Assembly: GCA_013289665.1 (NCBI GenBank)
Contig: JABCZN010000002.1
Coordinates: forward strand, 248,001 to 312,000
Length of the DNA: 64,000 nt
Direction: 5' to 3'
From: Acidobacteriota bacterium
GTDB lineage: Bacteria > Acidobacteriota > Terriglobia > Acidiferrales > UBA7541
Shown: in pieces, positions 24,035-26,140 of the stretch
Layout of the letters: each line of letters starts with the position of its first letter
Numbering within the stretch: the first letter of the stretch is position 1
The notes under the pieces: generated by a model
Database searches by the model: none
The model's input: only the letters and a program-made list of their open reading frames with translations
Told to the model about the DNA's origin: nothing
Translations under genes and position numbers: made by a program

Positions 24035-24397
24035 TTATGGCCTGGCGCCCAGGGCCAGGATGCGGTAGGCGGCTTCGTCGAAGCCGATGATAATTTGGGA
24101 CCCGCGGAGCAGCAATGGGCGGCGGATTAGGTTGGGGTTCTCGGACATTAGCATGATGGCCTCGGGACGGGTTGGCGATTTCTCGGCCATGTTGCGTTCG
24201 CGATAGAGATCGTTGCGCGTATTTAGGAATAGTTTGTGATCGCCGGTGCCGATGAGTTTGTCGAGTTCGGATTCAGAAAGCGGCGCTTTGTCTAAATCGC
24301 GGGAGTCGAAGTCGAGTTTTAGTTCGAGCAAGAGACCTCTCGCTTTGCGGCAGGTGGTTCAAGTGGGTTTCTGGTAGAAGATACATTTGGTCGTCAT
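24035..24397 (-). CDS. ArsC/Spx-family protein with in-frame UGA at the catalytic cysteine (putative selenoprotein)
   Basis: 120 codons from the ATG at 24397 (GGAG five bases upstream) to 24035. Read through, it begins MTTKCIFYQKPT, then UGA (24359-24361), then TTCRKARGLLLEL. In the ArsC/Spx thioredoxin-fold family this position is the catalytic Cys of a CxxC motif, so a UxxC motif would result. The rest matches the family: SESELDKLIG, KLFLNTRNDLYR and the NLIRRPLLL strand before the C-terminal IGFDE; 120 aa is the usual family length. Immediately 3' of UGA the transcript can form a short stem with a GGUC loop (24327-24344), as in bacterial SECIS elements. Without readthrough only a 12-residue peptide, or a 98-aa product from the TTG at 24331 lacking the active site, would form. 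A nonsense mutation or sequencing error is the alternative. Role: thiol/selenol redox enzyme or arsenate reductase-like; the substrate is unknown. Confidence 0.75.
24327..24344 (-). promoter_or_regulatory. Candidate bSECIS hairpin
   Basis: On the minus strand the bases A-GCGAGA-GGUC-UCUUGC-U form a seven-pair stem (one G-U pair) with a four-base GGUC loop. The first loop G is 22 bases after the last base of the UGA. Bacterial SECIS hairpins lie inside the coding region just after the UGA and carry a G among the first loop bases; the E. coli fdhF loop also contains GGUC. Identification is from visual pairing only. Confidence 0.6.
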
Positions 24398-24501
24398 CTG
24401 GCTCCGGTCGTATTTAAACATTAGGCGTAAATTTGAAGTTAGAGGCAGCCGCCACAAGAGCTCAAAGTCGTACCCTGGGGAGGCAGCTCAGAATGATATC
24501 C

Positions 24502-24825
24502 CTAATACCGGGGGACTTTGGGATCGATTTCGAGCGACCAGCGATCGATGCCGCCTGCGAGGGATTTGGCGGTGGCGATGCCCTGCTGGCGAAGCCAGTT
24601 GACTACGTCCAGGCTGCGCATGCCGTGGTGGCAGTAGCAGATGACGGGTTCGTCGGTGTCGAGCTTTTGCAAATTGGATGGAATTGAGCCCATGGGAATG
24701 AGGACGGCGCCTTCGATGCGGCATTGGGCGTTTTCCCAGGGTTCGCGGACGTCGACGAGGACGAATTTTTCGCCCCTGTCGAAGCGTTGTTTGAGTTCGA
24801 CTGCTGAAATTTCCAGATCGTTCAT
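24502..24825 (-). CDS. Rhodanese-like domain protein
   Basis: 107 aa from the ATG at 24825 (MNDLEISAVELKQRFD). It is a single rhodanese domain: KFVLVDVREPWE at the first CH2-like motif, and the active-site loop CYCHHGMRS containing the catalytic Cys followed by LRQQGI and LAGGIDRW. Single-domain rhodaneses move sulfane sulfur to thiols, and some pass it to molybdopterin or thiamine synthesis or to selenide handling. It directly precedes the UGA-containing ArsC-like gene, which makes sulfur/selenium chemistry a tempting link, but that is inference only. Confidence 0.92.
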   Translation of the reverse strand: MNDLEISAVELKQRFDRGEKFVLVDVREPWENAQCRIEGAVLIPMGSIPSNLQKLDTDEPVICYCHHGMRSLDVVNWLRQQGIATAKSLAGGIDRWSLEIDPKVPRY

Positions 24826-25021: not shown

Positions 25022-26140
25022 TTACTGGATGGAGCCTTTGGGGGAGATCCATTGCTTTTCGATGGACTGGATCTCGCTGACGAGTTGCAGGTCTTCTGGT
25101 TGCGGGAGCATCTCCTTGAGGTGCTCGGCATAGTTTCGATCGGCAAGCAGTTCACCGTGGACGCTGTAGGGTTTGCGGGCGTGTTCGCCGATGAAGCGGT
25201 TGAACTTGAAGTCGGGGACGTAGAGTTGCGGCTGGCCGACGGGGACGTTTTTGTTGATCATTTCGACGAGCTTGATGCATTCCTGGTAGTAGAGTTCGCG
25301 GCTGTGCTCGTTCATGCGCTCGAGATTGACAGCGGCTTTGGCGGTGGGCTCATCGTAACGGGCTTTCAGGCCCCAGACGTAGAACCAGTGGGCGGAGCTC
25401 GAGCGATCGACGCCAAACAGGTCGAGGCTGACGGGAATCCACTTGTTGATGTATTTCTGAATGACCTGCGTGGGGACGACGCCGGCTTTGACGATGCGCT
25501 TGATGCCGTCCTGGCCGGTACCTAAATGGAAGGATTCTTCCTTGAGCATGGGAATCATGGATTGGGCGAGCGGGGCGAAGCCGGAATAGCTGAGCATGGT
25601 GAGCTGGTACTTGCCGTCGCGATCGACGAAATCGGTGTAGACGAAGAAGTCGAGCCAGTTGTTGACGTCCTGATTGAAAGCGCCGAGTAGGCGTTTCTGG
25701 TCGAAGGCGCGGCGTTCGAGCATTTTCTGGGCTTCGACGCGGCCGCTGTAGCCGAAGTGATTCATCAGGAGATGGCACATCTGCCATCCATGGCGCATTT
25801 CTTCGGTGACAACGCGGCAGAGCGACTGGCGGTCGTGCTCGCTGGGCGAGGTTTCAAAGAGCCGGCGCTGCTGCTCGACGGAAGCAAATTCGGTGTCGCC
25901 CTGATAGACGATCAAATTGAGCAGGGCGTCGCGCATGCGCTGGTCGGGGATGCTGACAACTTTTTCCCACTTGGGACGTCCCTTATAGGCGCCGAATTCG
26001 ATTTCGTTGGAGCGGGTGGGGCCGAACTTGGCTTCAAATTTGTAGTCGGTGATTTCGGGATAGTCCACACCGATGTCTTTTTGCCAGACACGGAAGAGGT
26101 CGACCCAATCGTCGAAAGTGGAAAGACGTGTTGCCGGCAT
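25022..26140 (-). CDS. BoxB-like / phenylacetate-type di-iron oxygenase component
   Basis: 372 aa. It resembles BoxB, the oxygenase subunit of benzoyl-CoA 2,3-epoxidase, over most of its length: QGDTEFASVEQQRRL, the ligand motifs TEEMRHGWQ and LKEESFHLG (ExxH types), LERRAFDQKRLLGAFN, the FFVYTDFVDRDGKYQL segment and SGFAPLAQSM. It is about 100 residues shorter than BoxB, mainly at the N-terminus. The reductase partner BoxA and lyase BoxC are not in the window. With two crotonases upstream and a hydroxyacyl-CoA dehydrogenase downstream on the same strand, it probably attacks an aromatic or other acyl-CoA. The exact substrate cannot be told from sequence. Confidence 0.8.
   Translation of the reverse strand: MPATRLSTFDDWVDLFRVWQKDIGVDYPEITDYKFEAKFGPTRSNEIEFGAYKGRPKWEKVVSIPDQRMRDALLNLIVYQGDTEFASVEQQRRLFETSPSEHDRQSLCRVVTEEMRHGWQMCHLLMNHFGYSGRVEAQKMLERRAFDQKRLLGAFNQDVNNWLDFFVYTDFVDRDGKYQLTMLSYSGFAPLAQSMIPMLKEESFHLGTGQDGIKRIVKAGVVPTQVIQKYINKWIPVSLDLFGVDRSSSAHWFYVWGLKARYDEPTAKAAVNLERMNEHSRELYYQECIKLVEMINKNVPVGQPQLYVPDFKFNRFIGEHARKPYSVHGELLADRNYAEHLKEMLPQPEDLQLVSEIQSIEKQWISPKGSIQ

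Follow-up and report, generated by a model that had tools for sequence, protein, structure and literature searches.

Selenocysteine (Sec) in place of the catalytic cysteine (Cys) of ArsC-like proteins has been described before. UxxS selenoproteins of this type were reported from the Sargasso Sea as 'Arsenate reductase 1' (PMC1088965), ArsC-like selenoproteins from bacterial genomes, Desulfotalea and others (PMC1794560), and UxxC proteins designated 'Arsenate reductase 2' and assigned to cd03032 (ArsC_Spx) from the Global Ocean Sampling metagenome in 2008 (PMC2398784). Reviews list the UxxC family NF041106 as 'ArsC family (seleno)protein' (PMC9312934, PMC13188914). An older survey, in the portion consulted, credits Acidobacteriota with four selenoproteins of three families, which are not named there. 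The literature searched yielded no Spx-type selenoprotein, and the portions examined make no link between Sec-containing ArsC-like proteins and Acidobacteriota.

The gene that we report here comes from a soil-type Acidobacteriota genome and lies on the minus strand of the window, i.e. the whole stretch of 64,000 nucleotides analysed (Table 1). Like the ArsC-like and 'Arsenate reductase 1' selenoproteins, its product has Sec where COG1393/PF03960 proteins carry the catalytic Cys, although those selenoproteins come from other phyla and the marine family has UxxS rather than UxxC. With 'Arsenate reductase 2' it has in common the superfamily, the Spx-like branch and Sec as the first residue of UxxC; that group, however, stems from marine reads and was compared by its published table description. 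NF041106 is likewise ArsC-like and UxxC, yet the window protein and its relatives score far lower (31.1 bits for the window protein with this model, ArsC_rel_Se_1, against a cut-off of 85; best E-value 2.5e-10 among 35 relatives), which argues for another subfamily. Judging from these scores, the Acidobacteriota-centred subfamily is missed by the NCBIfam selenoprotein models. Since the portions of the literature examined name no such protein in Acidobacteriota, we class the group as an addition to the Sec-containing ArsC-like proteins already known, among which it possibly forms a separate subfamily.

An in-frame TGA at the position of the active-site cysteine

On the minus strand, the ATG opens MTTKCIFYQKPT, continues with TGA and then with TTCRKARGLLLELKLDFDSRDLDK and so forth, ending in TAA. 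With the TGA read through, the product matches Pfam ArsC (PF03960, residues 8-112, E 5e-18) with 65.5 bits against a gathering score of 24, which places it in the superfamily, and residues 13-16 read U13-T-T-C16. The first-pass annotation had called an ArsC/Spx-family gene whose in-frame UGA supplies the U of UxxC, and its coordinates, ATG, Shine-Dalgarno sequence and motif all proved correct on the sequence and the PF03960 match. Its expectation that a conventional call would end up with 98 residues and no active site was borne out as well: the standard code yields a 98-residue frame starting with TTG, so that current automatic annotation would presumably give a truncated protein lacking the active site.

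Table 1. Coordinates of the gene, its elements, its neighbours and the sel genes of the same genome
Feature	Position	Strand	Details
ArsC/Spx-like selenoprotein gene	24035..24397	-	120 residues, Sec at residue 13, stop included; start ATG 24395-24397, stop 24035-24037
Shine-Dalgarno-like GGAG	24402..24405	-	4 nt before ATG; from sequence
In-frame TGA, codon 13, U of UxxC	24359..24361	-	TGA/Cys exchange in homologues
TGC, Cys16, second residue of UxxC pair	24350..24352	-	invariant in alignments
SECIS-type hairpin GCGAGA-GGUC-UCUUGC (GCGAGAGGUCUCUUGC)	24328..24343	-	apical G-U at 24335-24336
Rhodanese-domain protein, upstream partner	24502..24825	-	PF00581; ATG 24823-24825; open frame to 24948
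BoxB-like benzoyl-CoA epoxidase relative	25022-26140	-	228.6 bits, under BoxB cut-off 499
selA	G000:C6:52925-54289 (window's genome)		554 bits
tRNA-Sec (selC), anticodon UCA	G000:C2:138148-138242 (window's contig)		62.6 bits

The same TTG-started frame is what would be left if the TGA were a real stop, the locus then being a pseudogene or the source of a 98-residue protein initiated downstream. The codon 13 data speak against this. Across 154 homologous loci (fetched homologues together with phylum-wide and GTDB loci; some genomes contribute through two collections, and the distinct proteins number 73 Sec and 41 Cys) the codon is TGA in 98, TGC in 44, TGT in 12 and nothing else, and so the check for Cys homologues facing the UGA, proposed in the first-pass annotation, came out with 98 TGA against 56 TGC or TGT. 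A homologue is present in 68 of the 89 genomes of the organism's taxonomic family, most same-genus matches contain exactly one interior TGA, and members are mainly Acidobacteriota (subdivisions 2 and 3, Bryobacterales, Acidiferrales) alongside a few records from Myxococcota and Armatimonadota. Because it is common to dozens of independent assemblies, the TGA is not a read error. With the same codon being TGA in dozens of independent genomes that retain 50-73% protein identity on both sides, with the replaced codon being exactly that of the active-site Cys and with a hairpin under selection behind it (see below), the real-stop reading stands refuted by comparison and we give it next to no credence.

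In the protein tree, 11 Sec/Cys changes are needed and at least 8 of them are forced by well-supported branches. Three Cys-coding genes (L179, L211, L215) group with two Sec genes and retain SECIS-like codons, the full 8-pair stem persisting in L179; these are probable relics of a Sec-to-Cys change. Three other loci (L090, L094 and L095 from G074, G078 and G079) are Sec forms within an otherwise Cys clade, their SECIS differing in sequence and register, and this clade is a candidate for a recent Cys-to-Sec gain; a tree uniting the Cys rows was not rejected here (p-AU 0.44). Candidates for amber or ochre Sec (TAG, TAA in G065, G077 and G068) were dismissed: their codon 13 is Cys and the stops are located elsewhere.

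A conserved hairpin and the machinery for Sec insertion

As one would look for in a selenoprotein gene, a SECIS-type hairpin with an apical GU lies just downstream of the UGA. It begins 15 nt past this codon and, with the T of TGA numbered 0, occupies positions 18-33. Stems of 6 or more pairs that enclose the GU loop occur in 89% of the 72 distinct Sec rows versus 15% of Cys rows, and in 5.6% of synonymous-codon shuffles. Stems average 7.2 pairs in these 72 Sec rows; for Cys rows the mean is 3.1, and synonymous shuffles give 3.2. The apical GU at positions 25-26 is kept in 67/72 distinct Sec rows versus 4/41 Cys rows. Across the Sec forms, pairs 22-29 and 24-27 both show compensatory exchange from G-C to A-U, and in other clades the hairpin adopts the registers i+j = 52, 53 and 54, which code for different amino acids and retain the apical GU. 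Codons GCA AGA GGT CTC TTG are near-frozen in 27 main-set Sec loci whereas they vary freely in Cys homologues, the near-fixation of AGA GGT CTC TTG being limited to Sec forms of the main clade. Among the few exceptions is L124 (from G130), a remote homologue that has TGA for Sec yet lacks a discernible hairpin at the expected site. So the stem with its apical GGUC loop, which the first-pass annotation had likened to bacterial SECIS elements, is conserved in position and co-varies, and most Cys forms lack it.

A search for sel genes had been recommended at the same time, with lack of selB or selC as the outcome that would count against Sec. It was answered in part: selA and selC are present in the window's genome, the latter even on the window's contig, while the assembly, 77% complete, yielded neither selB nor selD. 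Those weak matches to the SelB profile that were inspected in this genome (L001-L003) turned out by sequence reading to be IF-2, CysN and LepA, and a weak selD match to be PurM. In five sister genomes, selB adjoins pyrF, which is also missing from the 77%-complete assembly, and selB and selD share one contig in several relatives (68 kb apart in G030); because of this, a missing block would account for the absence of both genes. For selB in particular, the lost pyrF together with the completeness of 77% would explain the absence by an assembly gap. Consistent with this, SelB scores over the cut-off in nearly all 35 other same-genus genomes (G032 falls just below with 231.8 bits) and SelD in 33 of the 35. 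Within the family, SelB exceeds the cut-off in 39 of 41 genomes having a TGA-interrupted match, a count taken from listings in which the position of the TGA at codon 13 was read only for fetched loci. In G081-G084 and G086, SelA and SelB are absent and the gene is without TGA, codon 13 being read as Cys in four of the five.

From the failure to find selB in the window's assembly and from work on allo-tRNAs, in which unusual suppressor-type tRNAs have reportedly been described in Acidobacteria, one may envisage a suppressor tRNA or an allo-tRNA that places Cys, Trp or Ser at the UGA where we expect Sec. With selA and a canonical tRNA-Sec(UCA) in place, selB and selD present in relatives and a hairpin that would then serve no purpose, such decoding seems highly improbable to us. 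Instead, the Sec/Cys exchange, the conserved hairpin and the presence of selA and selC bear out the putative Sec-containing ArsC/Spx-like protein of the first-pass annotation, and as far as sequence comparison can tell, the gene at 24035-24397 on the minus strand almost certainly encodes a genuine selenoprotein with Sec at UGA codon 13. There, tRNA-Sec(UCA) would insert Sec under the direction of the downstream hairpin, presumably with SelB, as judged from the relatives, acting as the carrier.

Several features of sel genes in related genomes deserve mention on their own. At L086:253-4759 (G065:C113), where the sequence was read from end to end, the genes form a compact and divergent cassette in the order selC-selD-selA-selB, all on the same strand. 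Similar cassettes occur at L091 (G085:C20), G080:C233 and G061:C228, while the sel genes of other family members are scattered; the cassette was possibly acquired horizontally. Many same-genus genomes carry an in-frame TGA within selD (e.g. L136 and L137 from G029:C56 and G030:C46), and SelD itself is probably a selenoprotein in these. In G009:C465 and in G027:C2, two full-length tRNA-Sec genes lie close together.

Fold, neighbourhood and putative function

Best Foldseek matches of the AlphaFold model of the window protein (pLDDT 91.7) are Spx and ArsC-family structures, which assigns it the ArsC fold; Spx in complex with the alpha subunit of RNA polymerase scores highest. Among family models, TIGR01617 (Spx/MgsR) ranks first. 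Spx from Bacillus and Staphylococcus has the same fold (TM 0.79, 28% identity) and a CxxC where our protein has UxxC, so it could be argued that we are looking at an Spx-type transcription regulator with a Sec redox switch and not at a reductase. However, the window protein has Sec for the first Cys and scores below the cut-offs (69.5 bits with TIGR01617, which demands 75.05), and the gene is linked to a rhodanese rather than to regulators. Spx requires Gly52 for binding to the RNA polymerase alpha-CTD, but the window protein has His55 at this position and relatives usually have Tyr or His there; since Gly52 is not conserved, a role as an Spx-type regulator seems quite unlikely.

Residues invariant among 35 relatives include Sec/Cys13, Cys16, Arg17, Arg61, Asn62, Arg66, Arg93 and Pro94, and Arg61 aligns with a conserved Arg of the ArsC/Spx group. 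Together with the predicted ArsC fold, Arg61, Arg93 and Pro94 would suit a selenium-dependent arsenate reductase, but the arsC model TIGR00014 gives 32.8 bits against a cut-off of 106, classical ArsC operates with a single catalytic Cys in contrast to the UxxC seen here, and reading through the recurrent neighbour clusters revealed no arsenic-resistance gene. We therefore regard arsenate reduction as unlikely.

What does recur nearby is the rhodanese. The first-pass annotation had the gene directly following one and, indeed, a PF00581 protein sits immediately upstream on the same strand, an arrangement found in 36/67 Sec loci and 9/28 Cys loci with enough sequence (gap of 2-258 nt, measured by local match) and missing from roughly half of those with Sec. 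The wider surroundings in the window are acyl-CoA genes, namely a BoxB-related oxygenase, two enoyl-CoA hydratases and a 3-hydroxyacyl-CoA dehydrogenase. The BoxB-like protein beside the hydratases has 372 residues and is shorter than the 471-position BoxB model.

To our minds, the Sec-containing ArsC/Spx-like protein is probably a reductase with a presumed electron donor. As a thioredoxin-fold member of the ArsC/Spx superfamily it would employ U13/C16 as redox pair: the selenolate may attack an oxidised sulfur or oxyanion held near Arg61/Arg93, with Cys16 resolving the intermediate. Conservation of the upstream rhodanese suggests sulfane sulfur or persulfide (or a selenium analogue) as substrate, and we tentatively put forward persulfide as one possibility. 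Doubtful as it still is, the broader scenario is one where rhodanese and seleno-ArsC/Spx make up a selenium-dependent pair for reducing sulfane sulfur (persulfide), widespread in Acidobacteriota, in a family that went through repeated Sec/Cys swaps, one or more of them a fresh Cys-to-Sec gain (G074/G078/G079) and others reversions marked by relic SECIS elements.

Our data add a phylum-wide selenoprotein subfamily, truncated by annotation, to the biology of soil and sediment bacteria and may connect selenium to a rhodanese partner. Moreover, the unusually clear Sec/Cys switches and SECIS variants, with several registers and relics, may lend themselves to tests of how Sec is gained and lost.
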